Positions 2,400 to 58,075 of a stretch of DNA of 64,000 nt are shown here, in pieces. The stretch is taken from positions 22,283,452 to 22,347,451 of the forward strand of contig OX637294.1 in NCBI GenBank assembly GCA_951799445.1, read 5' to 3'. The position numbers were made by a program, and so were the translations under genes. Each line of letters begins with the position of its first letter. Within the stretch, counting starts at the first letter, position 1. The stretch is from Pseudisothecium myosuroides (Eukaryota > Streptophyta > Bryopsida > Hypnales > Lembophyllaceae). A model generated the notes under the pieces. It was not told the DNA's origin. It searched no databases and saw nothing but the letters and a program-made list of their open reading frames with translations.

Positions 2400-2795
2400 A
2401 GCCTTAGCCAGCAATTCAGTATTAAAATAGCCTTAGCAAAAATCCAGTCCTAAAATAGCCTTAGCAAAAAACCAGCCTTAAAATAGCCTTAGCAAAAAAC
2501 CAGATCCGAAGCTAGCATCCGAAACCAGCATCCAGTCCAGCATTCGAAACCAGATCCAGCCAACATCCGAAACCAGCTCCAGCCAGCATCCCATCAGAAC
2601 TCAGAAGTTTTTTTTCGTTTTTTTTAAACTAAAAAAAAAAGATTTAAATTAAATCTCGACCCCCCCAGCCAGCCAGGAAGGGCCAGGCAGGCTCCGGTTG
2701 GACAGCAAGCTCCGGTTGGACAGCGGCTCTCGGTTGGGACAGCAGGCTTCGGTTGGAACAGCAGGCTCTCGGTGGGGCAACCAAGGCTCCTCCCA
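2400..2795. repeat. Minisatellite cluster
   Basis: Three short tandem families lie side by side. The first has units around AATAGCCTTAGCAAAAA (2425-2500). The second has CCAGCATCCGAAA-like units (2505-2595). The third has GGTTGGACAGCAGGCT-like units (2690-2780). No coding frame is apparent. Confidence 0.7.
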
Positions 2796-3690
2796 AATTT
2801 TGATTCCTATTTTTTTGTTTCAAATTTTGGTTCTCTCAAACCAGAACACAAACAAAGATAAAGCAAACTAAAAGAATGTTGGACTAATTAACTGCTAAGC
2901 AGGGGTGAAGTAGAATTAGGGCCAATAAAAATACGAAAGGGAGGAGGAAGAAGAGAGCGGAGCACCACCATACCTGCACACGAAATTGTTTTCTCTCACC
3001 ACTCACACCTACACACAATGGAAGGAGATTAGGGAAGGAGAAGAAGAAGTAGGTAAGGAAAGGTGAGAGATGATAAATAGTGACCTAGGTTTAGGCTAGG
3101 TAGGCTTTAGGAAGAAATCTTGGAAATTTGTGGTGACCGTTGAGAGGAGGATTAGGATGACACAAAGCAAAGTTGTGTAAGAGGGTAGGAGGAGCATTCA
3201 AACCCTTCTCGGAGTTTGAAATCATAGTGTAAGACTCATAAAAGCTTAGGTGGAATAGTGTTAGTGTAGAAGAAAGAGGAAGAAAGAAAAGAAAGGAGGA
3301 AGGGAAAGAGGGAGTTTAGATCATCAAAAATTGTAACATTTTCTAAATAAGCGGTGAACTTGGAAAAAATTCAAAACAACGCCAAAGACTATCATGGAGC
3401 GTGAGGATGTACACGTGGACATGGACGAAATTACTTCCGACACCGGTAGTGAAGAGGTGAGTTTTTGATTTAATCTTTGATGTTTTCTCCCTAATTAGCA
3501 TTTATTTTCCTAATCAGCCCTTAGAGCGTGATTAGCATCCGAGATTAGTGCAAATTAGAAGTTTAGATTCAAAAAATCATAGATTAGGAATAGAGATTTC
3601 CGAAAACATCTTATAATTAAGATTCGACCGTAAACTGACCGCATTAGGCTAAGTTAAGCGGTAGGGGGTAGGACGGAGGAATTTTGAATA
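2796..3690. other. Intergenic, purine-rich; one possible short exon
   Basis: Mostly purine-rich DNA (GGAAGGAGAAG runs near 2940-3060 and 3265-3315). The only coding-like piece is an ATG at 3394 followed by 21 acidic codons (start MEREDVHVDMDE) running straight into a GTGAGT donor at 3457. No following exon could be identified, so this may be chance. Confidence 0.25.
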
Positions 3691-4289
3691 AAATTTCATC
3701 CAAAAAGAACCATGGACGGAAATTAGGTTTAAATTAGAAGGAGAATTTAGGATTAAAATTAGGGATTAATTAGCAGTTAGAATTAAAATCAATTTACACT
3801 TTTATTTTTTAAAGTTAAACTTCTAAGGTCAAAATCTAGAGTTAACTTTGGGGAGTTAAAAAATAGAATTAATTTAGAACTTTAACTTAGGGGTTTAAAC
3901 TCTCAAGTCAAATCTTAGAGTAGGTTCATGTAAGAGTTTAGAGTTGATTAGGGAGTCAAGAATTAGAGTAGAAAGTAGAGGTCAACAGTAGAATTGAAAA
4001 TCAACTTAGGAAGTAGATTTTTGAGTTAGGAATAGAGTAAAAAGTAGAAGTCAAAACTTGGAGTAACATTTAGAGTTCATCTAGGATTAAAACGATAGGA
4101 TTAAAGTTGAAAGTAGAAAGTCAAAAGTCAAAAGTCAAAAGTTAAGATTAAATTTAAAGGTTAAACTTTAGAATCAATTGGGGAGTAAAAAGTTAGAGTG
4201 AAAAGCTAAAAGTAGAAGTTAAAAGTTAGAGGTAGAAGTTAAAGTTAGAGTTAGTTGTTGGAAGTAGAAAAAATCTAGAGTCAAAGTGA
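3690..4289. repeat. Degenerate TTAGAGTTAAA-type simple repeats
   Basis: Low-complexity DNA built from variants of TAGAGTTAAA and AAAAGTCAAAAG, leading into the ordered 71-bp array downstream. No open frame. Confidence 0.6.
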
Positions 4290-10731: not shown

Positions 10732-10952
10732 CACTACAAGAGAAAGGGGTGTTTTAAGTGAGTTTTTAAGTAGTGTCCTAGACACATGATTTTAAGTAAT
10801 GACCTTTAAGGAGATTTTTAGCAAAATTTGACTCAAAAACATGTATTTTAAGTCAAATTTTGCTAAAAATCTCCTTAAAGGTCATTACTTAAAATCATGT
10901 GTCTAGGACACTACTTAAAAACTCACTTAAAACACCCCTTTCTCTTGTAGTG
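10732..10952. mobile_element. CACTA-type foldback MITE, copy 1
   Basis: A 221-bp near-perfect palindrome that begins CACTACAAGAGAAAGG and ends with its complement. It is flanked by a 3-bp duplication, GAT on both sides. CACTA ends plus a 3-bp target duplication are diagnostic of the CACTA (En/Spm) superfamily. The arms are about 100 bases around a short loop. A second copy lies at 13931-14151. Transcription through it would give a long hairpin RNA. Confidence 0.9.
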
Positions 10953-13930: not shown

Positions 13931-14151
13931 CACTACAAGAGAAAGGGGTGTTTTAAGTGAGTTTTTAAGTAGTGTCCTAGACACATGATTTTAAGTAATG
14001 GCCTTTAAGGAGATTTTTAGCAAAATTTGACTTAAAAACATGTATTTTAAGTCAAATTTTGCTAAAAATCTCCTTAAAGGTCATTACTTAAAATCATGTG
14101 TCTAGGACACTACTTAAAAACTCACTTAAAACACCCCTTTCTCTTGTAGTG
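13931..14151. mobile_element. CACTA-type foldback MITE, copy 2
   Basis: The same 221-bp palindrome as at 10732-10952, with only two base differences noticed by eye, but at a different target (AAA on both sides). The different 3-bp duplications show two independent insertions of one family, and the near identity argues for recent activity. Confidence 0.9.
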
Positions 14152-16016: not shown

Positions 16017-17160
16017 GTTTCCTATATTCGATCACTCTTGGGTGGGATTAAGCTTAAGTTAATTGGGGAAGCTGGAGAAAGCCCTGAAACACATTAATCT
16101 CGTGCAGGCAATCCAGGCATACTTTAAGCTTAAACCCTGGTCTCCTGGCAGGGATGACCAAACCATGATTTTCGTAGTTATTACAGTTTGTGGCAGCTTT
16201 TGCTCCGATGTACTCGAGCTTTTGTGTTGTGGGAAAACTCGAAACCTTGAAATGCAGATTTTTTTTTAAGAGGCCGAGCTAGGCTATGTGGGTAGTGGGA
16301 ACTTCGCAGTGACGAGTCTGGTCGTCGTGGTCCCTGGTGAAGCTTCAGCTATGGCGAGGTTCGTGAGAGTGTCGCTGCTGGTTCTTGTGTTATTGTCGCA
16401 AGGTGCAGCATTCTTGCAGGCCAAGACTCCTGATCCCATTCACACGTCGGTGATCGTCATCGGCGCTGGCATTTCAGGTCGGGATTCAAGAGTTTCCGGC
16501 GTTTTGCAAACATTGAATTAAGCTGCAACTCTAAATGTGTTGCAACGTCTCGAAAACTCCGACGCGGGTTCGTTGTAAACTGAAACATCTGTTTAATGCT
16601 GCAGTTGCAGTTCTGAATGATATCATACAGGTTTTTTTTTTTGGTTTTTGGAGTAGTGCTGAAGTGGCATCATACGAGAAAATAATGTAGCCAAATATTT
16701 TAGTATTCATCTATATTTTGGATAGAACTATCTTTTCATTCACATATTTGGATGAGTTTCATTTTAAATTGACAATTTCATCCAATTTTTTTAAAATATT
16801 GGAGCAATTTGGCATCATCATCCAATTTTTCTTTAATTTTTTTCTAAAGGCTTGGTGCAGCCTATTTTTTTTTTGAGGCATTTGGGCCTCATAAGGCCCA
16901 AAAAAAACACCTGATATATCATACATGTTTTGAAGCCCGATGCTGAGGAATACGTTTTCTCAGAAAATTTCTTCTTTTTCGAAAAATCAGTGTCACTTTT
17001 TCGTTTATTCCAACCTCAACTCAAACCTGGGGTTCCTGCTTTTTCACTAAGACGTAGTTTGACTGTGTGACACGTGTGGTGTAGTCAAGGAAATCGTAGC
17101 TTGGATATAACGAATGAATTTTGGCATTAATCCTTGTACTTTGGTGATTTCTTGGGTTTT

Positions 17161-17900
17161 AAAGCGTTGCAACTCATGAAATCAGCACTTGTATTGAGTT
17201 AGTGCCAATATTTATGACAATAGTGTGACATGACCAGGATAATTTAGGATGTTTTGGTATAGTGAAAGGCAAAACAAAGAGCATTGAAGAGAACTGAAAG
17301 CTCTCGGATTGCACTTCGCTGGAAGAAGAGATGATCGTTTCTATCACAGCTAGTATTCAACAAATGAACTCGGCACTACTCCGTATAAAGTCTGTAAATA
17401 GTGCTGATTTTCTTAGAGTTCGAACACATGGAAAGCAGCACTTTTAGCGAGTTCTTGTAAAAACATATAACAATACTGTGGCAAATTGCAGGATACTCTC
17501 GCTAAATTGTTGTTTTAGAGAAGGTCATACTACAGAGGTTAGAAGAATGTAGCGAAATGAAGAATACCGACATCTCTCAGTTTCCATAATTTCCCTGGAA
17601 GGAGAGTTGGTCGTTGCTATCACAACCAGTATCCAACAAACGAATTTGGCACTCCACCGCAAAACTTCTGTAAATAATGCTAATTTTGTCGGTTTTCGAA
17701 CAGTTGAATCAGTTGAACCACATGAAAATCTGATTCAGCACTTCTGGCAAGTTTTTGTCGAAACATATCTCGGTAGTGTGCCAAATTGCAGAATACTCTC
17801 GCTGAAATGTTGTTTTAGAGAAGCTCATACAATACAGGTTTTGAAGAATGTAGCGAAATGAAGAATACCGAAAGCTCTTGCTCTGCTTTCCTCTGAAAAG
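17161..17900 (+). repeat. ~301-bp tandem repeats in intron 1 of copy A
   Basis: TGTAGCGAAATGAAGAATACC occurs near 17549 and again 301 bases later near 17850. Each is preceded by the same diverged series (AACAAA-GAATT, AGTGCTGATTTT, CAAATTGCAG-ATACTCTCGCT). A third, shorter unit lies before them. The same kind of array sits in intron 1 of copy B (40680-41400), so it predates the duplication. Confidence 0.7.
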
Positions 17901-18750
17901 AGACTTGAATGATCCTTGACGATGCAGGTATGAAAGCGGGCCAGCGACTGGCGGAGAAGGGCGTCACCGACCTGATAATCCTCGAAGCCAGAGACGAAAT
18001 CGGCGGACGCATGATGACACACAACTTCAACGGCATCACCGTCGAGAAAGGAGCCAACTGGATCGAAGGCGTGGGAGGTCCCGAGCTCAACCCCCTCATC
18101 CCCATCGCCAAGAAACTCAAGCTCATCAACACCTTGTCCATTTTCGACAACACCACTAACAACATCTACGACGCCAAGTACGCTTTCATTTCGTTAGCAC
18201 TCCATAAAAAAAATTCAAACTCAAATTCCATTTCTGACCCGCAATTCCATTCTTTGTGATGTGTTCCAGTGGTAAGGTCCCGCTGGAGGTTTGTGAGGCG
18301 ACAACTACTCTCATTGACGATCTATATGCATTCACCGAGAGCTTGGGCACTTCTTTGATAAACACAAATGAGACGGATGTCAATGTGCTCACCGCACAGC
18401 GCTTGTATAATCGGTACGTTGCGAGTCTCCTGCAGCTTGATCCGATTGCTGGTTAGGGTTTGAGGTTTGGTGTGAATGATAGTAATGGTGGTTGGGTTTT
18501 GGTTTCGCAGAGTGCCGAGATCGCCTGTGGAGATGGTGATTGATTACTATATCAACGACTTCGAATTTGCAGGTTTTTGTGTTTGAGATTGAATTCTCCA
18601 CTCGATTGCTGTTTTAGGGTTTAGATTAGTTCAGGGGGATGTGAGGAGCTGTGTTTGTTATTGTGGATTCTAGTCGCTGTCTTTGAAAGTTATGGGCTTC
18701 AAATTCCTGTGTTGCCTTCAATTTTGAGATGGTGTTTGTTGTGATGGTAG

Positions 18751-18930
18751 AACCAACGAGTGACGAGTTTGGAAACCACGCAGCCTCTGCCGACATTTGC
18801 AAATTATGGTGAGGATATGAACTTCGTCCACGACCCGCGAGGCTGCAAAGTCATCGTCCATGATGTGGCGCAGTCATTTCTCAAGCATAAGAATGACAAG
18901 ATCACGGATTCTCGCTTGAAGTTGAACAAG
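18751..18930 (+). pseudogene. Copy A exon 5 with a 2-bp deletion
   Basis: Compared with copy B exon 5 (182 bp, 42292-42473), this exon is 180 bp: the third and fourth codons (ACTAGA in B) are reduced to ACGA. Splicing at the homologous acceptor (18750) shifts the frame. An AG ten bases downstream (18759-18760) would restore it at the cost of the three or four residues EPT(R), giving ...FA-V-TSLETTQ. Whether that acceptor is used cannot be seen from DNA. The rest of the exon is open in the correct frame and well conserved. Confidence 0.75.
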
Positions 18931-21852
18931 GTAAGTGACAGTGTTGATTAAACCTAGTATTCACAGGAAAAATCCAAAATGTCTATCCATGGGATTTTTG
19001 AAGAATTTCATAGTCAATGTCCAGTGATGAAAGAATAGGATACACGTACTGGGATATCACTTCATCCTGTCCATTTGTCCAGTTTCCATACACACAGTAG
19101 GACATTTGTTCAACTTTCACTTTGGATTTCTCCAATGTGTCGATCAAACTGAGGAATTACATGGAATTTTTGAAGAGCTTTTTCCACCTTGTCCAGTAAT
19201 GATAGAATAGGATACACGTACTGGGATTTGCTAAAAATGGAAATTGGACACAAAAGGACATCTGTTCAATTTCCATAGACACCGAACGGCATTTGCTCAG
19301 TTTCCATTTTGGAAATCTCCTGTGATTGCGTTCAAATTCTTTTTGTAAACTTATCATTTATATATGATCCATTGTGTGCGTTGGTGCAGGTTGTGCGCAA
19401 GGTGGAGTACAACACGAAGGGCGTTCGCGTGACAACAGAGGACGGGTCGGTGTACACCGCGGAGTTCGCCATGCTGTCTGTGAGCCTGGGTGTGCTCCAA
19501 AGCCAGCTAATCGACTTTGTTCCTGATCTACCGGTACGGTGCAGGTCGAATTATCTATTGCAGTTCGTTCTCATCACTCCATTTCACAATCAACCAAAGC
19601 AATCATATTAAACAAAATAGAAACAAGATAGAATTGTACCCCGAAAGTATCTATTGAAACAAGATAGAATCGCATCCCGAAAATTGCATTCTCGAACTGA
19701 CGATTTCTCTGAGGAACCCAGTTTCGAAGCAAACAAAAAGGAAACTCTGATAAAATAAAATAAAATAGCATACTGAATGGATTCATACAGTTGCAAATTT
19801 TTTCTAACCAAGAGCAATGGTCTTCAAATGGTGTTTCAAATGGGTTTCGAATTCTCCCGGATTTGGAGCTGTTTCGTATTAATTTCTCGAGTTTGATAGA
19901 TGCCGTGATTCTGTTTTCTGATTTTGAGCTTAGCTTTGCAGTATTGGAAGCTGAAAGCGCTCTACTCGTTCAACATGGCTGTGATGATGAAGATCTTCCT
20001 GAAATTTCCCTCCCGGTTCTGGGACACGAACCCGGAGATGAAGTGGTGGCTTTACGCTGATGAGCGCCGCGGGTACTTCCCGATTTGGGAGGTACTGCTG
20101 GACTCTCATTACACGTTTTCCCTTCTGAAATATGAATTTCGCTTTTATTGCAGTTTTGATTGGGACCTTCAATGAAGAATGTGTGTTGAACGAGGATGTG
20201 ATTGAACCGGGGATTGAACTTGTTACTGACAAAGAAATTGTGAGGACGCGAAGTGGCACTTTTGTATTTTAAGTGATCAACAAGAGAACTTCACTGGTTT
20301 ACCTCATTAGTGCATGCGACACCAAATGGCAATTGTTAGTAATAGTACGTTCTGTAAAAGAATCACCAGTGGATTGGGATTCATCAATGCAAGGGAATCC
20401 ATCACTGCACTGGAATTCACTAAAAACAACCTTGTGAAGTATTCACTGCTGAAATCACAAAAGTTTAAACTCGACTAGATTGTGTGCACTACACGTCGTG
20501 GATTGATGTGTCGATTCTCCAATACAGAATTTGGACGTCTTCAGAGTGGAAATCACAAAAAACTGAACTCCACTAGATTGTGTACACTACTCCTCGATTG
20601 ATGCCTAGATTGACGTCTGGATTGACTCTGGGATTTGGACAGAATCGGGACCTCTGCAGCAGAATGTCCCTATTAGACACCTCCTCCATGGGTGCCTGTG
20701 TATACTGCCGGGGAGGTCCCCTATTCTACAATTCTTACCGATTTCTGGAATCCTCCAATTCAGAATTTGGAAGTCTTCACAGTGGAATTCACCGAAACCT
20801 GGACTCCACTAGATTGTGAGAACAACTCGTTTATGCATGTGTGCATTGACGTCTGGATGGCTTTCTGGATTGCTTTCTTTGGGATTGGTTCAGCACATGG
20901 ACAGCGAGTTTCCGGGTGAGAACGTTCTGCTGGTGACGGTAACTGACGAGGAGGCTTGGCGGATCGAGCTGCAGTCGGACGGGGAGACGTTGGTGGAGAT
21001 CATGGCGGTGCTGCGCACCATGTTCGGGAACAACGTCCCGAACGCCACCAGTCTTTACGTGCCTCGATGGAACGCCGACCGATTCTTCAAAGGCTCCTAC
21101 TCCAACTGGCCCATCGGCATGGACTCTGATATCTTCCTGCAACTTCAGGTGCATATATGATCACTCCCAATCTTGCAATTCATGCTTTGGTTAAAAAATG
21201 AAAATGGCTAGTACTCGAAATAGTTTGAACTCGTGCAAACATAGTCTTCGTAGACCAAGGGGAAGGACCCACGAGAAGACTTACATGACAATTTCGAATT
21301 TTTGTGGGCCATTTTTGGTCTTCGCTGACCATGTTTTCACTAAGGTAAGTGCATCCGTTATCGAATTGTTTGATCACGATTCATGTGCGATCTGCGGAGC
21401 AGAGGTCCAGTAACTTTAGGTTAATGATCACTCTTAATCTTGAATCATGCTTTTGTAAAACTACCAACAATCGCCTGCGCGCTAATGGTCACACTCGTTG
21501 AAACATGGTATGGTATTCGTAGACTAGGAAAAAGGACCCACGAGAAGACTCATGTGACGAATTTGACCATTTGTGGGTTTACTTACTGTAGTTCTTTGGT
21601 TTAGGTTAGCCGTGCTTTTACAAAGGTAAGTGCACCCATAATTGACACTCATAGTAACGGAGTGTGCTTGGTATTATAAAAATTAAATTGTTTTTATTGG
21701 ACCATATCAGTTTTTGCACATCTTGAGAAGAAATTGTAGAACCGTTGTGAGTAAATGTTTTGTTCAGGGTTGTTGTATTAATTATGTTATGTGGGTGCAA
21801 ATGGTGAGCACTATCCTAACTTGGAACTGTATGAGAAAATCTGATTGCATTA

Positions 21853-23632
21853 GGGCCTCGCACATGGGAGTTCGTGGGGGCAGCATTTGGTGCCGGATGC
21901 ACCAGGGCGGGCCCCCACCGGCGAATGAAAAAGTCCCCGTTCTGGAGTTCAGTTACCCCCGAGGCAGAGAGTTCGTTAACCCCGAGGCAGAGAGTTCGTT
22001 AACCCCGAGGCCATGGCAGGTGAAATTGAGAAGGCAACCTGGGGTTTCAAGGTTATTCATTCCTGCGCTTCTTGGCTCTTGTGCCATGTTTTCTTGCTGT
22101 GAGTTTTAGGGTTTCACTTTGTTTTCATTTATGTTTCTTGTATGTTTTTGTACTAATATTGTTATTGAATTAATATTGTTATTGAATTAGTATTGTTATT
22201 GAATTAATATTGTTGCTCCAATAAATTCACGTGTCCATGTCCATGTGTTCAAATTTTAAAAAAGAGTCTTTTATTCAATGTATTGGAATTTGAAACAAAT
22301 CAAACCAAATTCAAATCAAACCAAACCAAATTCCATACAAGATTGGAAACAAAACTCCAATACCTAAAACTCTTGGAGGGAGATTTCCAAAACTACTTAG
22401 AACTCCCAGCAGAGTCCTTGTCTTTCAGCGCATTTACAAACAAAGCTGCCATCTGCAATTGATTCTCCATCATCATGTCTCTACTCTCTATCTCAGCCCT
22501 CATCATCATCTGCCTCCCCTCTCTATCACTGTCAAGTATCTTCTCTGCTAACCCCATCTTCATCTTTTCAACCTCCAAAATCCCCTTCGAGAAGTCCTTG
22601 ATGGCTGAGGCAATGTTTTCATCTCCTAATGCCAACTTCCGCTTCCTTTTCTGTGCGCTTCGGTTCACCTGGCCTTGAACATCCGGTTGATTCACGGCAT
22701 TTGTGCGAGGGGATTGCGACGAGGCAGCAGGTGGAATGGGAGGAACTTGAGGAGTACCAGGCACGGCGTCCTCTCCATCGTCACTCAGAACCACGTGTTC
22801 TTGATGTTGCATCCTCACCTCTTGGTCCACACCATGTGGGACCCCATGTATTCTAACTGTTCCAGAATACATTTGGTCAAACAGCTCAAACCAAGGCTGC
22901 CATGTCGATGGTGGCGCTCCCGTCTCCTGCTCCTTCAACTTCTCCCTCTGATAGATCGTCTTCATGCTCCCCCATTTATCTCTCGTTTGCTGCCATGTGC
23001 ACTGCGACTCTTCAGGAAATTGGGTATTCAACTCCCTAGCAAATAATTGCCAGTTGGATTGCTTAAATGCCTTCCTGTCATACTCCCAATAAAAGCTAGA
23101 ACATAAGTCAATTAGAAATCTCACTGTAGTGTCTTTCCACTCTCTCCTGACATTCCCTGTACCACGAGAGCTTCCCTCCTGAGTTCCCTGAGAACTTCCC
23201 CCTCCCTGAGTTCCTTGAGAACCTCCTCCTACCTGAGTTCCTTGAGAACTCCCCCCTCCCTCATCATTAAACATCAAGGAAAGTAATCCTCCCCTCGGGA
23301 TCTCCATACTGTGAAACCCTAAATTTCAAAAAGCACAAACAAGTGGCAATTTGCAATTAACTAACACCCTATCCAGAACTTGCAACAACAAACAAGAAGA
23401 ACTGCTTCAAGGAAGGTTTGGTTTAGGAGGTGAAAGGAAGGAAGCCTGCGGTGACCACTTTCTACCGCATGCGGTGAAAAGTGCCACTTGAGTGGGGGTA
23501 AACCCAACCGTACGGGCTGGCCCTCTTCAGTTCTCGGGGCTGGGCCGGTTGGGCTGCCTCCGCCCGAACCCACCCTTTGCGGCCCTCACTTGGGGTCCCA
23601 AACCCAGGCGTTGGGGCTCATGTACGAGGCCC
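21853..23632. mobile_element. PIF/Harbinger-like element in intron 8 of copy A
   Basis: A 1780-bp insertion absent from the same place in copy B (47030). Ends: GGGCCTCGCACATG on the left and, on the other strand, GGGCCTCGTACATG on the right. The flanks are TTA and TAT, an imperfect 3-bp target duplication of the AT-rich kind used by this superfamily. It carries one intact ORF (22393-23307, -) for the Myb/SANT-like accessory protein but no DDE transposase, so it is a non-autonomous derivative. A 23-bp direct repeat (CCCCGAGGCAGAGAGTTCGT) lies at 21955-22012 and a 17-bp TATTGTTATTGAATTAA repeat at 22155-22213. Confidence 0.75.
22393..23307 (-). CDS. Myb/SANT-like DNA-binding protein of a Harbinger-like transposon
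   Basis: An uninterrupted 304-residue protein. Residues 17-51 are Gly/Ser/Gln-rich short repeats (GGSSQGTQ). Residues about 55-140 form a trihelix/Myb-SANT-like domain with the spaced tryptophans W57, W86, W105, W112 and W136, and TRDKWGSMKTIYQREK as the last helix. A basic patch QKRKRK near residue 220 looks like a nuclear signal, and the last 60 residues form a Met- and Glu-rich predicted coiled coil. In PIF/Harbinger elements such a protein binds the ends and helps the transposase enter the nucleus. It lies wholly inside the TIR-bounded element and antisense to the host gene. An unrelated host trihelix factor is less likely given that position. The start fits the first Met of the frame. 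Confidence 0.75.
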   Translation of the reverse strand: MEIPRGGLLSLMFNDEGGGSSQGTQVGGGSQGTQGGGSSQGTQEGSSRGTGNVRREWKDTTVRFLIDLCSSFYWEYDRKAFKQSNWQLFARELNTQFPEESQCTWQQTRDKWGSMKTIYQREKLKEQETGAPPSTWQPWFELFDQMYSGTVRIHGVPHGVDQEVRMQHQEHVVLSDDGEDAVPGTPQVPPIPPAASSQSPRTNAVNQPDVQGQVNRSAQKRKRKLALGDENIASAIKDFSKGILEVEKMKMGLAEKILDSDREGRQMMMRAEIESRDMMMENQLQMAALFVNALKDKDSAGSSK

Positions 23633-23677
23633 TATTGTTTCGAGAGTCTTACGAGTGCAATTGTGAATCGTTGACAA

Positions 23678-23759
23678 GCGCCGGTGAAGACTCTCTACTT
23701 CACAGGAGAACATACCAGTGAACTCTACAATGGCTACGTCTATGGAGCCTACTTGCAAG
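23678..23759 (+). pseudogene. Copy A exon 9 with damaged acceptor
   Basis: Codes the C-terminal FAD/substrate segment ([20 protein letters not shown]). The acceptor before it reads GACAA|GCG where copy B has GACAG|GCG. Using the AG one base later gives CGC CGG TGA, an immediate stop; extending upstream in frame meets TGA in TTGACAA. No in-frame alternative acceptor is visible nearby. Confidence 0.75.
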
Positions 23760-24167
23760 GTAACTACTAAATTGCAAGGGAAGTGTCTCTGTGAGAACAT
23801 CAGTTAATTCCTTAGATAACCCATGGCAATCCTATTGTGCCCAGATTGCACATGATTTCTAACATTGTGATAGTCAATAGTGTTGCCTGAAAAAGTGGCA
23901 TTAAAGTTGTTTTGAGTCAGATAGGTGGTCTAGAACATACTCCATTTGCACTGGCTGAAATCTTAGTATGACATTTGGGCACAACTTTCTTGCGACATCG
24001 CAAATTGTGATGATAGACAGTGAGAATACAAAGTGAATTGTGAATTGGGTACATTTGTTCCTTCGAGAGTTTGGTGAGAAAACAAAAGATGTGATATTGA
24101 AGAAGGTGATATTAATGAGGTCTATGTGTATTCTATTCAATGCTTCTACTGTCAAGACCCAACTTAA

Positions 24168-24388
24168 CCCTTAAACGTTGACACAGTCATTCTATGGCCG
24201 ATGGATGACAGAGAATCAAATTGTGTAGGACAGAAATGCAACTATTCATCCTCAAAATTTGTGGTGAAAAGGGGAGATCTTCTAGAGTAGCTTGACTTCC
24301 AATGAGCACTTTTGCAATTTTTTAAACCAATGATTCACACGGTAATGCAAAAGGATGATTTTGAGGTCACCCCTTCATCCTTCAAGGG
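24168..24388. mobile_element. 221-bp TTAA-flanked MITE in intron 9 of copy A
   Basis: Flanked by TTAA on both sides (24164-24167 and 24389-24392), with ends CCCTTAAACG and CCCTTGAAGG (complement). The paralogous intron in copy B reads straight through the place (ACCCAACTTGCTCACAAGG, around 47520-47538), which proves an insertion. Relatives of its interior occur at 11285-11470 and 58077-58260. Confidence 0.75.
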
Positions 24389-24477
24389 TTAATCACAAGG
24401 TTCAAGAAAATCTAGTTTTATCAATCAAGAATCGTTGTGTTGTAACATTAAAAGCAATTTGATCTTGCTTTTTTCAA

Positions 24478-24587
24478 GTCTTGCAACTGCAAATTCGCTC
24501 CTGGATTGCATTTTGCATAAGAAGTGTGCAGCTTCAAGCTCGGCTTATGCGAAGCTTTCAAAAGAATGCAAACGTCATCTTGATTCG
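24478..24587 (+). pseudogene. Copy A exon 10 with damaged acceptor
   Basis: Codes LATANSLLDCILHKKCAASS and onward in the unshifted frame. The acceptor is TTTTTCAA|GTC, compared with TTTTTCAG|GTC in copy B, again moving the AG by one base. The donor after it (TCG|GTGAGA) is intact. Confidence 0.7.
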
Positions 24588-25389
24588 GTGAGAAAGGCTG
24601 ATTGATTCTTTGAACTTCTGCATATTCAAGAAATTCTTTTAAGTCCATCCCTAGTTTTCATTGTGTGTTTTTACTTTGACCTTCTAGGAATAAGTTTACT
24701 TTGATAATTGTATGTACACCCTACATTTCTACAATTTTCAACCCCTTATAAACTCCCTACAAAGTATTTTAATTGATTCGAACATTGAAAATATACAAGA
24801 AATAGTGTTGAGGTCAAAAGTATTAATGAGTTCATCCAACTTTTGGTGTTTAAAAATAAGTGACATTGATCCACCTAGATTGAATACAACCTTGCAACTT
24901 GAAATGTAGTTTGTTGGACTGTTATTTATGGTTATTGGATGAAATATTGTCCGCATAAGCATTCAATCATGGTTTCTATTATTAAATTAGCTAAATTTTG
25001 TTGAATCTTATTGGCAGTCAAAGGAAGATTTAGGATCTTCTTAGCATGCATTTTTGGGACACCATAGGAATAAAGTATAAATTTGTATAGTGTTGAAAAT
25101 AGGTGTATATTCAAAAGTTACCCTAATTTCTCATGAATAGACATTTTATATATTTGGTGACGAGAATTTGTAGAGGTCAGTTTTGGGAATGGATCACAAT
25201 TGGGTGTAATTTCCTTATGCCAACTTTGGCAAATTGATTTTCATATTTTTTGCACTTGATGTATCAAAGCTGCAACACTTATTCAAATGTTTTGGTGAGA
25301 TGTAGGAAAGGGATTTGCAAAAGGACACATGTATGAAGTTGGTTGTAAAGCTTGAAAAAAAATTAGCAGACGCTAGGCAAAGGCCTTGA

Positions 25390-39194: not shown

Positions 39195-40679
39195 GAGCCA
39201 GCTACAGGCCCTGCTGGAGAATTGCAGATCAGAGCCCCGACCAGCTTTTCGTGAAGTCATTCTACCAATCTGCCATGAATCGATCGATTCCGGTACCAAT
39301 CCCCTGCCGGCAAGGATTGCCCTCGCACATGCCAATGATCCATGCATATATGGCTAGTCGAACTACCCTACATGCATATTAACAGACTCTTCTTTCACGA
39401 TGCACTCGGGGCCGTTATGATTACGTACGTGATCGCTGTATTGAGCTCTCTTGTTGGACCCTTAGAAATTAACATTGCTCATGAGCGATCGGGGCATTTC
39501 CATAGAATCCATGTGAGGAGAGTTCGCCAATAGGATATATTTGCTCCTGCTAGACGGACCTATCTGGACCTATCTGGTGGTTTGATTGGTCTAGTGTTGT
39601 TAAACCTACAGTAGTTTTCACCCATCTGTTCTAACTGTCACTCCAAGTGTTCAATTACGCCCTTGGTTTGCCCCGGTTTTCCTGTTGCCCTGGACCTTTT
39701 TTCCGGTTAAACCGTTACACTTCATGTCGACCTGTTCGTTGACCTTCAGCCGATCCCACTGCCGTTATCTGCGAGTGTCCAATATTAGAAAAGCAAGTTA
39801 GAATTGCCGCTTCCTCTATTCGATTTGGATGAGATAGGGGAAGCACTGGAACGCATTAACCTCGTGCATGCTAAATTTAATTCCATCAACCTTTAATCCT
39901 GACTTCCAGCCAGGTCTACTTTCAGGAGCCCAAACCATGATTTTCAAATGCGTAGTATCCCCAAAACTATAGATTCCAGGTTTCGCTGAAACCATTGTTT
40001 CAAAACATGAGCTGCTTGTCCTTCGTGAATGGAGGCTATTCGTAGTTATTACAGTGGGCGAAGTTTATGGGGAGCATTTGCTCCGATATACGCGAGCTTT
40101 CGTATTGAGGGTGAAGTTGACACCTTGAAATGCAGTGCATCTGTGTAGTGGGAACTTCACAGTGACGAGTCTGGTTGTTGTTGTTCCTGGTGAAGCTTCG
40201 GCTATGGCGAGGTTCCTGAGAGAGTCGCTCCTGGTGCTGGTGTTGTTGTTGCAAGGTGCAGCGTTCTTGCAGGCAGCAAAGACTCCGGATCCCGTTCACA
40301 CGTCGGTGATCATCATCGGTGCTGGCATGTCAGGTCGGGATTCAAGCTAGCTGCTTTGTTTGTTACAAACTGAAACGTTCATTTAAATATCATGTTTTAA
40401 ATATTTTATATTGTACCCGATTGCGTTTACGGAAATGTCCATTTCATCAGCTGCACTTTGGGACAATCATGTTTATAGTACCTGCTGCGTAGCTATACCT
40501 TTTCTCAAAAAAGTTCAATTTTTCTTAAAATCAATGTTTTTTCAGTTTTTCCAACCTCAACTCAAACCTCTAAGCTTCTAGGGTCTTCACTACGATGTAG
40601 TTTGAATGTGTGATGAGTGTGCTACAGGCAATAGAATCCCAGCAAATGAATGTCTGGAAGTAATCCTTTTAAAGTGGTG

Positions 40680-41400: not shown

Positions 41401-42574
41401 AGAGCTTTTGCTGTGCACTTCTCTGTGATTATGAGTGCTGACCCTTGACGATGCAGGTATGAAAGCGGGGCAGCGATTAGCGGAGAAGGGCGTCACCGAC
41501 CTAATAATCCTCGAAACCAGAGACGAAATCGGCGGACGCATCATGACCCATAATTTCAATGGCATCACTATCGAGAACGGAGCCAACTGGATCGAAGGCG
41601 TGGGAGGACCCGAGCTCAACCCCATCATCCCCATCGCCAAGAAACTCAAGCTCATCAACACCATGTCCAACTTCGAAAACACCACTAACAACATCTACGA
41701 TGCCAAGTACGCACGATCATCTCACTGGAATTCATCAACATTCCACATACAAACACAATTTCAAAAATTTCCCGTTTCTGACAATTCTTTGTGTTGTGTT
41801 CCAGTGGTAAGGTCCCGCAGGAGGTTTGTGAGACGACAACCACTCTCATTGACGATCTGTATGCATTCACTGAGACCTTGGGCACTTCTTTGATAAACAC
41901 TAGTGAGACGGATATCAATGTGCTCACCGCTCAGCGCTTGTATAATCGGTACGTTGCGAGTCTCCTGGAGCTTTCTTGATCCAATTGCTGGTTTAGGATT
42001 TTAGAATTTCGTTTTGATTGACAGTGATGGGGATTGGGTTGGGGTTTCGCAGAGTGCCGAGAACGCCTGTGGAGATGGTGATCGATTACAATATCAACGA
42101 CTTTGAATTCGCAGGTTTTTGTGTTTTGAGATTGAATTCTCTCTCGATTCCGATTTTAGGGTCTAGATAAGTTCATGGGGAAATGAGGAGCTGTGTTTGT
42201 TATTGTGGATTCTAATCGTTGTCTCCGAGTTGCTGAGCTTCAAATTACTACGTTTACTTTAATTTTGAGATGGTGTTTGTTGTGATGGTAGAACCAACTA
42301 GAGTGACGAGTTTGAAAAGCACGCAGCCCCTGCCGACATTTGCAAATTATGGTGAGGATTTGAACTTCGTCCACGACCCGCGAGGCTACAAAATCGTCGT
42401 CCATGATGTGGCGCAGTCGTTTCTCAAGCACAAGAATGGCAAGATCACGGACCCTCGCTTGAAGTTGAACAAGGTAAGTGAAAGCGTAGGTCAAACCCAG
42501 AATTCACAGGAGAAATCCCAAATATCCATCCATGGAATTTTTGAAGAGTTTTTCCTTAGTCAATGTCCAGTAAT

Positions 42575-43459
42575 CGCAGCGGACCTTTGTGGAATTCCCT
42601 GCGACTGTTTTGGAGATTATGTAGGTTTTCATGCAAGTTTCTCCTAGTTTTTATGTTTCCCTGTGTTCTAATGTGATCATGGAGGGATTTTCAAAGAGTT
42701 CCTATGCAAAAGGAAATTGTGGGTTTTCTTTGTAAGGATTTTCATAAATTTCCCCCAAATCCCCCGTGTGCAATCCAAATTGGTAGACTTTGCAACACAT
42801 TGACACATCTTACATTTCAATGTTTTTTCCACCTAATATTTGGTAGATTCAAATTGTCCCATATCGATTGTCGAGGGTACCATGAGGTTGGACACATAAG
42901 ACTTGTAAGTTGTCAATCTTCATGTGGATGTATTCAATTCTTAGAAACCTAACGTTTCTACAGTTGGTACATTTTAGAAATCTCAGAAATTTTACAATAC
43001 ATGAAATTGTAAAATGTTCAAACAAATGAATCTACATATTACTAATATTTTGAACTATTGAAATCTAGCTAACGGTCTAGACTAAAAATTCTGAAATGTA
43101 CAAATCATTAAGATTGGAAATTCAAAATCTACACATCTGTTAGATTTCAACTTCCAAAATCTACAAACTGAATTGATTATGCAAACTAAAATCTACATTA
43201 AAATTAGATTTTAGATGCTTAAATCTACATTCTAGATTATTAAATTCTACAAATTGAGTTGATTTTGAGGTGGGGAGATCTTCAAATAACACTAAAGAAC
43301 GCACAAATTTCCCCCTTAAAACTCCCTTAAAATTCCCTGTCTCACATTTCCCTGTGAGAGTGATATTCCCTATGAACAACAATTTGTAACTTTTTCTTGT
43401 TTCTTAGGAGGGGATTTGGAGTACAATGCCTGCGGGGAATTCAGAAAAGGCTTCCTGTG
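42575..43459 (+). mobile_element. 885-bp CACTA-like element, left inverted partner
   Basis: Begins CGCAGCGGACCTTTG (CACAG... in the partner) and ends GGCTTCCTGTG. The ends are imperfect inverted repeats that share GAATTCCC-GC near base 18. Flanks are now AAT (42572-42574) and CTT (43460-43462). Several AATCTACA motifs lie inside, like the subterminal binding repeats of CACTA elements. Open frames inside have no domain. CAC ends and 3-bp target duplications point to a CACTA-superfamily non-autonomous element. Confidence 0.8.
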
Positions 43460-43999
43460 CTTTGATTTGATCAGAGATTTGTTGTACGTACTTGCTTCGA
43501 CTTTGAGTTCCCCAGTGAAATTGTAAGCTTGCGAATGCGCGCAATTTTGATACTCTCGAGATACGATTCTATCTTGTTTCTATTTTGTTTACTATAATTG
43601 CTTTGGTTGATTGTGAAGTGGCGTGATGAGAACGAACTGCAATAGATTCGAATTGCACAGTACCGGCAGATCAGGAACAAAGTCGATCAGCTGGCTTTGG
43701 AGCACACCCAGGCTCACAGACAGCATGGCGAACGCCGCGGTGTACACCGACCCGTCCTCTGTTGTCACGCGAACGCCTTTTGTATTGTACTCCACCTTGC
43801 GCACAACCTGCACCAATGCATACAACGGATCATATATAAATGATAAGTTCACAAGTAGAAATTGAATGCAATCACAGGTGAAATCCAAAATGGAAACTGA
43901 GCAAATGTCCTTCTGTGTTTATGGAAATTGAACAGATGTCCTTTTGTGTCCAAATATCATTTCTAGCAAATCCCAGTACGTGTATCCTATTCTATCATT
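43460..43999 (-). other. Inverted 540-bp segment of copy B
   Basis: Reverse complement of the sequence expected here from copy A (about 19198-19750, intron 5 end, exon 6 and intron 6 start). Both junctions fall exactly at the ends of the 885-bp elements. On the - strand it reads AATGATAGAATAGG..., intron, TTGGTGCAG|GTT, exon 6, CCG|GTACTG, then intron. Confidence 0.9.
43664..43807 (-). CDS. Exon 6 of polyamine oxidase copy B, inverted
   Basis: A 144-bp exon with intact GTGCAG acceptor and GTACTG donor on the - strand, phase 0 at both ends. It encodes the 48-residue FAD-domain piece starting VVRKVEYNTKGVRV and ending QLIDFVPDLP. It differs from copy A exon 6 by one residue (AAF for AEF in VYTAEF), so it shows no decay since inversion. 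Confidence 0.9.
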
Positions 44000-44884
44000 C
44001 ACAGGAAGCCTTTTCTGAATTCCCCGCAGGCATTGTACTCCAAATCCCCTCCTAAGAAACAAGAAAAAGTTACAAATTGTTGTTCATAGGGAATATCACT
44101 CTCACAGGGAAATGTGAGACAGGGAATTTTAAGGGAGTTTTAAGGGGGAAATTTGTGCGTTCTTTAGTGTTATTTGAAGATCTCCCCACCTCAAAATCAA
44201 CTCAATTTGTAGAATTTAATAATCTAGAATGTAGATTTAAGCATCTAAAATCTAATTTTAATGTAGATTTTAGTTTGCATAATCAATTCAGTTTGTAGAT
44301 TTTGGAAGTTGAAATCTAACAGATGTGTAGATTTTGAATTTCCAATCTTAATGATTTGTACATTTCAGAATTTTTAGTCTAGACCGTTAGCTAGATTTCA
44401 ATAGTTCAAAATATTAGTAATATGTAGATTCATTTGTTTGAACATTTTACAATTTCATGTATTGTAAAATTTCTGAGATTTCTAAAATGTACCAACTGTA
44501 GAAACGTTAGGTTTCTAAGAATTGAATACATCCACATGAAGATTGACAACTTACAAGTCTTATGTGTCCAACCTCATGGTACCCTCGACAATCGATATGG
44601 GACAATTTGAATCTACCAAATATTAGGTGGAAAAAACATTGAAATGTAAGATGTGTCAATGTGTTGCAAAGTCTACCAATTTGGATTGCACACGGGGGAT
44701 TTGGGGGAAATTTATGAAAATCCTTACAAAGAAAACCCACAATTTCCTTTTGCATAGGAACTCTTTGAAAATCCCTCCATGATCACATTAGAACACAGGG
44801 AAACATAAAAACTAGGAGAAACTTGCATGAAAACCTACATAATCTCCAAAACAGTCGCAGGGAATTCCACAAAGGTCCGCTGTG
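44000..44884 (-). mobile_element. 885-bp CACTA-like element, right inverted partner
   Basis: Exact reverse complement of 42575-43459 by eye, except that its outer end reads CACAG rather than CGCAG. Flanks are ATT (43997-43999) and AAG (44885-44887). The intact CACAG end supports CACTA-superfamily membership. Confidence 0.8.
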
Positions 44885-45340
44885 AAGTAGCAAAGTAGAA
44901 AAATAAATGGATACATATATACCATTGCAAAGTTTGTCTAACCAAAAACAGTGATTTTTAAATGGTTGGGGTTTTCGAAATCTCAGTATTTGGAGTCGTT
45001 TCGTATTGATTTCTCGAGTCTGATTGATGTTGTATTGGGTTATCTGATTTAGAGCTTCGTTTTGCAGTTTTGGAAGCTGAAAGCGCTCTACACGTTCGAC
45101 ATGGCTGTGTACATGAAGATCTTCCTGAAATTCCCTTCTCGGTTTTGGGACACGAATCCGGGGACGAAGTTTTGGTTGTACGCCGATGAGCGCCGCGGAT
45201 ACTTCCCGATCTGGGAGGTACTATTGAACTCTCATTACACGTTTTCCCTTCTGAAATATATGGAATTTGATTTCTGTTTTGTTGCAGTTGTATTTCGGAC
45301 TTTGAATGAAGAATGCGTGTTGCACGAGAATGTGATTGAA

Positions 45341-45648
45341 TGGCGAATTTCATTAAAATGACGGTATTCCATGTGCCATTTTCACACCATGACATCTAGG
45401 ACAAGTGTACATTGCTAACATCTAGGTCATTTTCAGATTTCAGAAGTCTAGGTCTGACAGAGATTTCAGATTGTGCAGTCTGAAAAACCTAGGATTGGTA
45501 TAGATTTTAAATATCTAGGACAACTATAGATTTCAAAATCTAATACAAGTATAGATTTTGGTACACAAAAAACAGTTCAGACTGGGCAGTCTGAACTGCT
45601 AAAAGTGCCAAATTAACGGAATACTGCCATTTTAATGAAATTGGCCAT
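45341..45648. mobile_element. ~308-bp TIR element in intron 7 of copy B
   Basis: Ends TGGCGAATTTCATTAAAATG and, on the other strand, ATGGCCAATTTCATTAAAATGG; the inverted repeats extend to about 30 bases. TTGAA flanks both sides (45336-45340 and 45649-45653). Copy A reads straight through (GTGATTGAACCGGGG near 20200), giving a paralogous empty site. The interior has repeated (A/T)ATCTAGG and CAGTCTGAA motifs. Confidence 0.75.
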
Positions 45649-48374
45649 TTGAACCGGGGATTGAACTTGTTACTGACATAGAAACTTTGAGGAGTTCAAG
45701 TGGCACTTATAATCTGTGATCAACAAAGAAACTTCTGTCACTGGATTATCCCATTAGTGCATGTGACATTAAATGACCATTGTTAGTAATAGTTTTCACC
45801 AAAGAATCAGCAGAGGATTGAATCGGAATTCATCACTGCAGTGGGATCTACTAAAATATCCTCTTCTAATTTTTCAGTGAAACTAATCAGTGCACCATCA
45901 GTAATATGATAAATCACTGTAGTTATATCACTGCAGTTTAACGATGAAGCGAAGTCCCATCCCAAGTTTTCACTTGAACTTACGCGCGGATTCACCTTTA
46001 AAAGTATCCACTGGAATGCATCGAAGGCTGAACTCCACTAGTTTGTGTGCACTCCAGTCCTCACAGATTGATGTCTGGATTTTCCAGTGCAGAATTTGGA
46101 AGTCTTCACTACAAAATTCACCAAAGTCTGAACTCCACTAGTTTGTATGCACGACTCCTTGATTGATGTGTGCACTATTGCTCATGGATTGGCTTCTGGA
46201 TTGTTTTTCTGTTGTTTTTTAACAGAATTTGGACAGCGAGTTTCCGGGTGAGAATTTGTTGATGGTGACGGTCACGGACGAGGAGGCTCGGCGGATCGAG
46301 CTGCAGTCGCACGGGGAGACGTTGGTGGAGATCATGGCGGTGCTGCGCACCATGTTCGGGAACAACATCCCCACCGCCAGAAGCCTTTACGTGCCTCGAT
46401 GGAACGCCGACCGACTCTTCAAAGGCTCCTTCTCCAACTGGCCCATCGGCGTGGACTCCGACATCTTCTTGCAACTGCAGGTGCGTATATGGTCACTCCC
46501 AATCTTTCAATTCATGCTCTGGTAAACAAAACAGCAATTGCTAGCACTTGGAATGGTTTGGACTCATGGAAACATGGGTTGCGTAGTAGACTAGGGAAAT
46601 GAACTCCCAATCTTTTATACTTTTGTAAGGAAAGATCAATAGTTAGCACTCGAAATGGTCATGGAAACATAGTTTGCAGAGTGTAGGGAAATAGACTCCC
46701 AATCTTTCATGGTTTTTGAGGTCTGCACCTTGGTCTGCACTGTTGATAACTTTTGAGGTCGATTGTACCACGATGCATTGAAGCCTTGCTAAATATTGTT
46801 AACAATTTTTTTATCAAAGTTTAATATTTTTGACAACACTGTACAGATGAGGGCTGGTTAGAATTCCAAATTTGGAGGGAAAGTTTGATGGTGACCACTT
46901 TTTAACAAATAACTTACTATTGTGAATGAAGAGTTTATGGAGGCCGAGTAGTTCTATTAGTCATGATACATAGTGCAGATAGTGAGTGCTACCCTAACTT
47001 GGGACTGTATGAGAAAATCTGATTGCTATGTTTAAGAGTCTTACAAGTGCAATTGTGCATCGTTGACAGGCGCCGGTGAAGGCTCTCTACTTCACAGGAG
47101 AACATACTAGTGAACTCTACAATGGCTACGTCCATGGAGCCTACTTGCAAGGTAACTACTAAATTGCAAGGGAAGTGTCTCTGTGAGAACATTAGTTAAT
47201 TCTTTAGATTACCGAGTCCCATTGTGCCCAGAATGCACATGATTTCTAGCATTGTGATAGTCAATAGTATTGCGTAAAAAAGTGACATTAAAGTTGTTTT
47301 GAGTCAGATAGGTGGTCTAGAACATACTCCATTTGCACTCGTTGAAATCCTTAGTATGACATTTGTGCGCAATTCTTGCAATGTAATAGATTGTGAATAC
47401 AGTGAGAGTATAAAATGAGTTTTGAATTGGGCACATATGTTCCTCTGAGTGTGATATTGAAGGAGATGATATTAAAGGGATCTCAGTAAATTCTATTTAA
47501 TGATACGTTCTTCAGTCAAGACCCAACTTGCTCACAAGGTTCAAGAAAATCTGGCATGATCAATGAGGGACTGTCTTGTTGAATGTGATATTTAAGGGCA
47601 ATTTTATCTTGCTTTTTTCAGGTCTTGCCACTGCAAATTCGCTCCTGGATTGCATTTTGCATAATAAGTGTGCAGCCTCAAGCTCGGCTTATGCAAAGCT
47701 TTCAAAAGAATGCAGCCGTCATCTTGATTCAGTGAGAAAGGCTGATCGATTCTTTGTAACAATGTTTGTGTGCTAGAGAAATCCTTTAATTAAGTCCATC
47801 CCTAGTTTTTCGTTTTATGTTTCTACTTTGACCTCCTGCAAATAAGTGTATTTGATAATTCTATGGTATACACCCTACGTTTCTACATTTTTTCATAATT
47901 GAACCCTTGCAAATTCAAATTTTTAATTTATTCAAATGTTGAAGATATATGAGAAATAACATTAATAGAGATCAAAAGTTATTAATGAGTTCATCAAACT
48001 TTCGTTGTTTAAAAATAAGTGGCATTGATCCACATAGATTGATTTACAACCTTGCAACTTGAAATGTAGTTTATTAGTCTATAATTTATGGGTAGTTGCC
48101 GCCAGTATTGTCCAAATAAACATTTTAGCATGGTTTCTATCATTGAATTATCTAAGTTTTTGTTGGATCTTGTTGAAAATTAGAAGGATTTTAGATTTAG
48201 GAACAAGTGACAATTGTCATGTTGATTGTGCTTGTTGGGGAAAAGTTGCAGGTCTTACTCACTTGTATCATTGTCTTTGGTGAAATGCAGGAAAGGGATC
48301 GACAAAAGAGTACATGCATGAAGTTGGTTGCAAAGCTTGAAAAACAATTAGCAGAAGCCAAGAGAAGGCTTTGA

Positions 48375-55573: not shown

Positions 55574-56270
55574 TTAAGGTAGGAGGTCCATAAAGCGACC
55601 ATCTAAGCGTTGAAACTGAATTTTGGGGAGGTAAAACATCTTGAAATATTTTTCAATAAATTTTCCTTGAAAAACAAGTGGAATTGACATCTAACCCAAG
55701 TCGTTTCATATTTTTTGGACCTTTGTGGAATTAGTTACAAATTTTTGAAGTTGGAAAAAAGTGGTCATTTGTGGTCATCAAAAGCGACCAACTCCTGAAA
55801 TGTGCACAATTGGTACATTGAAGAAAGCAAAATGTACCTCTGAGTCATGTTCGCTTCTAATGCCCGGTCGGAGTTTGAGCCTCCTATCTTAGATGCCAAT
55901 TCCATTTGCCTTTCAAGGAAAATTTAGTGAAAATTATTTCAAGAGGTTTCACCTCCCCAAATTCAAGTTTCAGCTCTTAAAGTAGGTATCCCAAAACCGC
56001 CACTGAACTTAAAGCGCCATCTTCATTGTGTGTACACCTCCAAAATCAGTCCTGTACCTCTGTGAAAGAAACGCTTTTAGAACCAAACTTTGTTCCTTTA
56101 AAACTTTTGCATACGATATCCAAATGTCGCGTTCTTTGGTGTGTTGGAACCTCCTTTCCCTTGCCAATAAGAATATAGAAGAATTTGAATAGTCTAATAG
56201 TAGTAATTAGGCACAGTAGCAATTTGTGGCGGTTTAAGGATACCTACCTTAGATGGACCTCCTACGTTAC
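55574..56270. mobile_element. Foldback element cluster starting TTAAGGTAGGAGG
   Basis: The left end TTAAGGTAGGAGGTCCAT recurs inverted near 56245-56265 (ATGGACCTCCTACG). Inside, 55605-55692 and 55893-55980 are inverted repeats of about 88 bases (GGGGAGGT-AAAC-TCTTGAAAT... against its complement). Probably one or two nested foldback elements. Exact ends are uncertain. Confidence 0.5.
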
Positions 56271-57010: not shown

Positions 57011-58075
57011 GCAGCAATTTCTTGAAAAATTTATCGCTCAGGGTTTTTCCCTATGAAGGCTTTTTTATGAAGGCTCTGTGACCCATGAGATGTTTGCAGA
57101 TTGTACAGTACAGGACTTTGGTATTTGGTTGTGTGATCGATTTGGGGTATTAAAGGTTTAGCTAGAAGGGCTGTAATCTTATTAGTTTGAGCTCCTTCAG
57201 TTTTGTGGTGGATCTGGTGTGGTGATGTATTTGTTAGAGTCCCATTGAACTCTCAATCATCACTCATGTATAATAAACTGACGACTTTCATGTCATCGTA
57301 TTCTCGCACTTGGGGTGTTGTGCATTGTGTTTATGATGATTTGATTCTAGAGTTTGCTTCCCCGTCTAAGCAGCTGCAGCAATTTCATGAAAAATTTATC
57401 GTTCAGGGTTTCCCTATGAAGGCTTTTTTATGAAGGCTCTGTGACCCACGAGATGTTTGCAGATTGTACAGTACATGACTTTGGTATTTGGTTGTGTGAT
57501 CGATTTGGGGTGTAAGGTTTAGCTAGAAGGGCTGTAGTCTTATTAGTTTGAGCTCCTTCAGTTTTGTGGTGGATCTGGTGTGGTGATGTAATTGTTGGAG
57601 TCCCATTGAACTCTCAATCGTCACTCATGTATAATAAACTGACTTTCATGTCATCGGAGTCTCACACTTGGGGTGTTGTGTGTTGTGCATTGTGTTTATG
57701 AGGATTTGATTCTAGTGTTTGCTTCCCCGTCTAAGCAGCTGCAGCAATTTCTTGAAAAGTTTATCGCTTAGGGTTTCACTTTGAAGACTTTCCTATGAAG
57801 ACTCTGTGATCCACGAGATGTTTGCAAATTGTACAGTACAGGATTTTGGTTATTTGGTTGTGTGATCCGTTCTGGGGTGTAACAGGTTTAGAATCTTAGT
57901 TTGAGCTCCTTCAGTTTTGTTGTGGATCTGGTGTGGTGATGTAATTGTTGAAGTCCCATCGAACTCTCATCACTCATGCATTGAATAAACTGACTTTCAT
58001 GTCATCGTATTCTTGCACTTGGGGTGTTGTGTGTTGTGCATTGTGTTCATGATGATTTGATTCCTAGTGTTTACA
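56997..58075 (+). repeat. Threefold tandem duplication of the 3' end of the Cys-rich protein gene
   Basis: Three units of about 360 bp begin with TGCTTCCCC(A/G)TCTAAGCAGC at about 56997, 57357 and 57720. Each includes the last two or three codons and stop, then TTTATCG(C/T)(T/C)(C/T)AGGGTTT, GATGTTTGCA(G/A)ATTGTACAGTAC, ATAATAAACTGA or a relative (poly(A)-signal-like), and CACTTGGGGTGTTGTG. The second and third units carry an extra CTGCAG after AGCAG. Only the first follows the coding sequence, so alternative polyadenylation sites may result. Confidence 0.85.

Follow-up and report, generated by a model that had tools for sequence, protein, structure and literature searches.

The sixth exon of the polyamine oxidase gene described here is assembled on the opposite strand to the other nine exons, inside a 540-bp inversion that has one of two homologous, oppositely oriented transposons at each breakpoint. 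The 3-bp target-site duplications of these elements are exchanged between them. From this arrangement we infer both that the plant really carries the flip and that it was made by homologous recombination between the inverted elements, the latter being the best explanation available and, in our assessment, a probable one. The mechanism is a known one, and the locus is likely a new and unusually clean case of transposon-driven inversion, with the observation confirmed and the mechanism unproven.

The window, i.e. the whole 64-kb stretch of DNA that was analysed, contains two tandem copies of the gene. The rearranged gene, copy B, carries both elements, and its exon borders were placed by hand from the reading frame and the AG/GT splice signals. 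The reference for the empty insertion sites is the other gene, copy A, which is a paralogue and not an allele, within a single assembly. The features of both genes and of the element pair are collected in Table 1.

Table 1. Positions in the window of the two gene copies, the element pair and the inverted segment
Feature	Position	Strand	Description
Copy B, exons 1-5	40204-40333, 41457-41706, 41805-41948, 42053-42114, 42292-42473	+	From frame and AG/GT signals
Copy B, exon 6	43664-43807	-	144 nt, phase 0 to 0, 48 aa; GTGCAG acceptor and GTACTG donor on minus strand
Copy B, exons 7-10	45068-45217, 46226-46480, 47070-47151, 47622-47776	+	Coding part only for the last exon, stop TAG; from frame and AG/GT signals
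Target-site duplication 1, outer half	42572-42574	+	AAT; partner ATT at 43997-43999, on inverted middle
Element 1	42575-43459	+	885 bp, intron 5 of copy B; non-autonomous CACTA-like; first bases CGCAG
Inverted segment	43460-43999	-	540 bp; exon 6 with the adjoining end of intron 5 and start of intron 6; aligns to copy A in reverse complement only
Element 2	44000-44884	-	885 bp, intron 6 of copy B; both ends CACAG
Target-site duplication 2, outer half	44885-44887	+	AAG; partner CTT at 43460-43462
Copy A	16351-24596 (~16.3-24.9 kb)	+	Tandem paralogue lacking both elements; exons 1-8 span 16351-21148; exons 9 and 10 lie near 23675-23761 and 24474-24596

The element pair and its breakpoints

A preliminary description of this DNA had reported two facing 885-bp copies that differ by one base, and this is confirmed: the elements are equal in length and the only mismatch is at their second base, which is G in element 1 (left) and A in element 2 (right), with the other 883 bases past it identical. 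The chance of a sole mismatch lying so near an element edge is about 0.5% (4/885). An inverted-repeat search returned arms of 886 nt (42574-43459 and 44000-44885), since the flanking T and A pair too. Read from left to right, the trimers at the four element borders are AAT, CTT, ATT and AAG. Reversing the middle turns AAT/CTT and ATT/AAG into AAT/AAT and AAG/AAG, and so restores, base for base as had been claimed, two 3-bp duplications whose halves now stand exchanged between the elements. By simple arithmetic, two swapped 3-mers would agree by chance about once in 2,500 to 4,000 cases. The trimers lie at the exact element ends, which bears out the claim of base-exact breakpoints, and the interval originally given, 42572-44887, is correct: it runs from one outer trimer to the other and takes in both elements and the middle.

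The earlier statement that the 540 bp are the reverse complement of what copy A predicts is likewise upheld, both by direct comparison and by collinear alignment. In reverse complement the middle agrees with copy A at 415 of 454 aligned positions (91%) in a BLAST match that leaves out its final ~90 bp. Removing the elements and turning the middle gives agreement with copy A at 1764 of 2061 aligned bases (85.6%), as against 1539 of 2053 (75.0%) with the middle in its assembled orientation. Copy A had further been described as empty at both sites, and it indeed has no element at either, although the two sites are not equally clear. At site 1 the joined sequence and copy A agree over 44 unbroken bases, and AAT is uninterrupted (19198-19200). 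The surroundings of site 2 are A-rich and align with small gaps, and AAG itself is unmatched. A second region of copy A resembling site 1 is found ~170 bp upstream (19027-19055), the empty site being one of two alike; this leaves the inversion reading unchanged. The possibility that copy A is itself the rearranged copy was rejected, as its exons 1-10 share one order and strand. Predicted RNA folding of the 540-bp middle was unexceptional (z 0.52).

The gene and its tandem paralogue

Once exon 6 is taken from the minus strand, the ten exons of copy B form an open frame of 517 codons that ends at the stop codon at 47774-47776. The splice signals are complete, with AG at nine of nine acceptors and GT at nine of nine donors. 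The orientation of exon 6 is the only defect that we see in this copy, and the inversion is therefore probably recent. Protein searches were run with the first 506 residues of the ten-exon product and gave 533 relatives, 120 of them listed. The same 506 residues align with the maize polyamine oxidase (PAO) structure 1b37 from query position 33 to 483 (residues 5-463, E 4.5e-154), and on this sequence evidence the predicted product is a plant polyamine oxidase of the maize PAO type, matched across the whole enzyme. The best-scoring protein match, from Nymphaea thermarum, has 43% identity over 82% of the query, and two proteins of the moss Ceratodon purpureus, which are among the matches listed, have 66% identity to the copy B product. 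The plant is therefore probably a moss. The highest identity among the 120 of 533 matches listed is 68% (P0006), and none of these is close enough to be copy B itself.

Of the 48 residues encoded by the inverted exon, 17 are invariant across nine aligned plant PAOs, namely copy B and eight sequences picked by hand from the 120 listed relatives. Exon 6 of copies A and B differs by five synonymous changes and one non-synonymous change, a pattern suggesting that the exon was under constraint, with no sign of decay. Skipping it would keep the frame, since both of its ends are in phase 0, and would leave 469 codons. The transcript would now be made without exon 6, in frame and with 48 residues fewer encoded.

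Copy B has no stop codon corresponding to that of copy A (RKAD followed by TGA) and runs a few codons further to a TAG (47743-47776). Intron 7 contains a 309-bp MITE (45340-45648) that is absent from copy A; its terminal repeats start ATGGCGAATTTCATT and ATGGCCAATTTCATT, and it has an apparent 4-bp duplication, TTGA.

Copy A, the reference, is itself damaged. Exon 5 has a 2-bp deletion (18751-18930 region), for which splicing at an AG farther downstream might bring back the frame at the cost of four residues, and the acceptor AGs of exons 9 and 10 are each one base out of place (23640-23680 and 24470-24480). Copy A may be a decaying copy. Its intron 8 carries a 1782-bp insertion (21852-23633) with ends AGGGCCTCG and flanks ATT and ATT, which encodes a 310-residue Myb/SANT-like frame on the minus strand (22393-23325; Pfam PF13837, E 3.9e-07) and which we presume is perhaps PIF/Harbinger-like.

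Across exons 1-8 the two genes show 58 silent differences in 293 sites and 54 replacement differences in 1000 sites, a count that does not include exons 9-10, the part of exon 5 preceding the 2-bp gap, the exon 1 codon that copy A lacks, or any codon interrupted by an intron. The difference between the two elements (1/885) is about 175 times below this silent difference. This implies that the insertions, or the last event that homogenised the elements, are far younger than the gene duplication.

Origin of the inversion

In the sequence of events that we favour, two copies of one non-autonomous CACTA-like transposon would have inserted in opposite orientation into introns 5 and 6, each generating its own 3-bp duplication, AAT in one case and AAG in the other. 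A crossover between the inverted, near-identical copies, either within one chromatid or between sisters, would then have flipped the intervening 540 bp together with exon 6, and in doing so would have swapped the inner halves of the duplications. This is supported by the exact coincidence of the two exchanged 3-mers with the element ends, and by a copy A that lacks both elements. Some observations weigh on the other side. The sole mismatch, at base 2 of 885, fits gene conversion and fits a pasted consensus repeat equally well; the join at site 2, being gapped relative to copy A, is less well supported than that at site 1; and both paralogues would then be damaged, which we count against recombination.

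Exchanged duplications have been argued to be the mark of recombination between inverted elements in the case of Galileo in Drosophila buzzatii, according to the available excerpt of that study (PMC2775673), and mismatched duplications have served to test which state is ancestral for L1/Alu inversions of primates, some of which invert exonic regions, in the portion available of a second report (PMC2603318). The other signature of recombination, chimerism, is uninformative here because the elements are all but identical. The exchanged duplications, together with the lack of deletions at the element ends, therefore make recombination the best reading. The preliminary description went further and held that the mechanism was pinned. 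Its reading stands as the best one, resting as it does on an accepted signature, but "pinned" is too strong, given that the 883-bp identity leaves room for an assembly error, that chimerism gives no information, and that a precise cut and rejoining would give the same sequence.

An error of assembly would mean that the gene in the plant is collinear and contains the two elements, and that one repeat consensus was laid down twice with the middle joined backwards. A wrong join of this kind should yield exactly exchanged duplications and so mimic every feature of an inversion. The 883 identical bases in a row, with the sole mismatch 2 bp from the unique flank, are the pattern of a collapsed repeat, and copy B is otherwise an open gene. 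Because the copies are identical over 883 bp, reads that fail to span a copy could not have oriented the middle. A read spanning just one copy would also set the orientation of the middle, so that the join would have to have been guessed, and the 64-kb window has no N, which speaks mildly against a guess. On balance we consider such an error unlikely, while taking it seriously.

Breakage and rejoining linked to transposase activity, in which either both inner or both outer ends of the elements are cut and the segment is religated backwards, would produce the same final order, and the one altered base, located at the outer end of an element, might be a scar of repair. Footprints are the usual result of end-joining after excision; here, however, the trimers pair up and no other terminal base is altered. 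In the excerpt of the Galileo study, aberrant transposition involving a hybrid element is said to give an inversion accompanied by deletions (PMC2775673), whereas the element ends here show none. This route seems to us very improbable. An older small inversion, with elements inserting at its two ends afterwards, has nothing specific in its favour, would need two insertions exactly at both breakpoints and would leave the exchanged 3-mers unexplained, and can be set aside as next to impossible.

Recombination between the inverted elements, the reading that we prefer, has close parallels. As in Galileo inversion 2z3 of D. buzzatii, opposite copies lie at the breakpoints, the duplications are exchanged and the uninverted state has single copies of the target, here clearly so at site 1. 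According to the excerpt, that case is a chromosomal inversion in which the duplications are 7 bp long, the elements are chimeric and uninverted chromosomes can be compared (PMC2775673), whereas the present one covers 540 bp within a gene, with 3-bp duplications, near-identical elements and a paralogue in a single assembly as the empty-site reference. The human-chimpanzee retrotransposon inversions resemble it in that inverted repeats recombine, mismatched duplications reveal the derived state and exons are inverted at some loci; these involve L1 and Alu retrotransposons in primates, so far as the portion available of that report goes (PMC2603318), unlike the DNA transposon and the one whole exon of a plant gene here. 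Recurrent human inversions likewise have inverted repeats as their substrate and show a high degree of recurrence, as stated in the available part of that work (PMC3961182). No description of the present locus was found among the titles and opening lines of abstracts listed.

If the inversion is real, it provides a very clean, exon-sized plant example of transposon-driven inversion, with base-exact breakpoints, a frame that is open except for the flip and a paralogue to compare. It would also provide a simple test locus for repeated flipping between inverted elements in nature. Mosses (Physcomitrium) are noted for efficient homologous recombination. One could go further and regard the element pair as a reversible switch, in which exon 6 flips both ways by homologous recombination, both orientations occur among individuals or cells, the gene is turned on and off accordingly, and gene conversion keeps the elements identical. 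Gene conversion enters this proposal because of the 883 identical bases and the location of the only difference at the very edge; we think it doubtful that the pair works in this way. An inversion that is both real and fixed would leave the two tandem genes impaired. Should the assembly instead be wrong, the locus would be a useful warning that exchanged duplications are not in themselves proof of an inversion if the repeats are identical.

The element family and other repeats in the window

Three of the four element ends read CACAG and the left end of element 1 reads CGCAG; none has the terminal CACTA motif, which is why we limit the label of the element to CACTA-like. The terminal repeats are imperfect, with 20 of the first 33 positions alike. 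The target-site duplication of 3 bp (AAT and AAG after reversal) is as in the CACTA (EnSpm) superfamily. The motif AAATCTACA occurs four times inside the element, at positions 551, 583, 615 and 647 of 885 with a spacing of 32 bp (43125-43233 in element 1, mirrored in element 2), far from the ends; these repeats are possibly protein binding sites. A search for transposase in four stop-free stretches of element 1 gave no Pfam match at E values up to 1, as would be expected of a non-autonomous member of only 885 bp. The CACTA group is characterised, in the available text of one account, by terminal CACTA, subterminal repeats and a 3-bp duplication (PMC8978399). The present element is like this group in its 3-bp duplication, its ends starting CAC and its repeated AAATCTACA motifs, and unlike it in its CACAG ends, the lack of a detected transposase and the internal position of the repeats, which do not adjoin the ends.

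No third copy of the element and no further ends of the family were found in the 64-kb window, the four end matches being the ends of these two copies. A 16-bp match to the element at 55717-55732 was rejected as a further copy, since no element end precedes it. An Rfam search of the 64-kb window gave 0 matches.

Two 221-bp elements with CACTA ends (CACTACAAGAGAAA) lie at 10732-10952 and 13931-14151 and are ~98-99% alike. In each, 212 of 221 positions agree with the reverse complement of the same element, and they are recent palindromic CACTA MITEs. Their 3-bp flanks match (GAT..GAT and AAA..AAA), and exchanged trimers are therefore not the rule in this window. A tandem array at 57011-58072 consists of ~2.9 copies of a 365-bp unit (88% matches).
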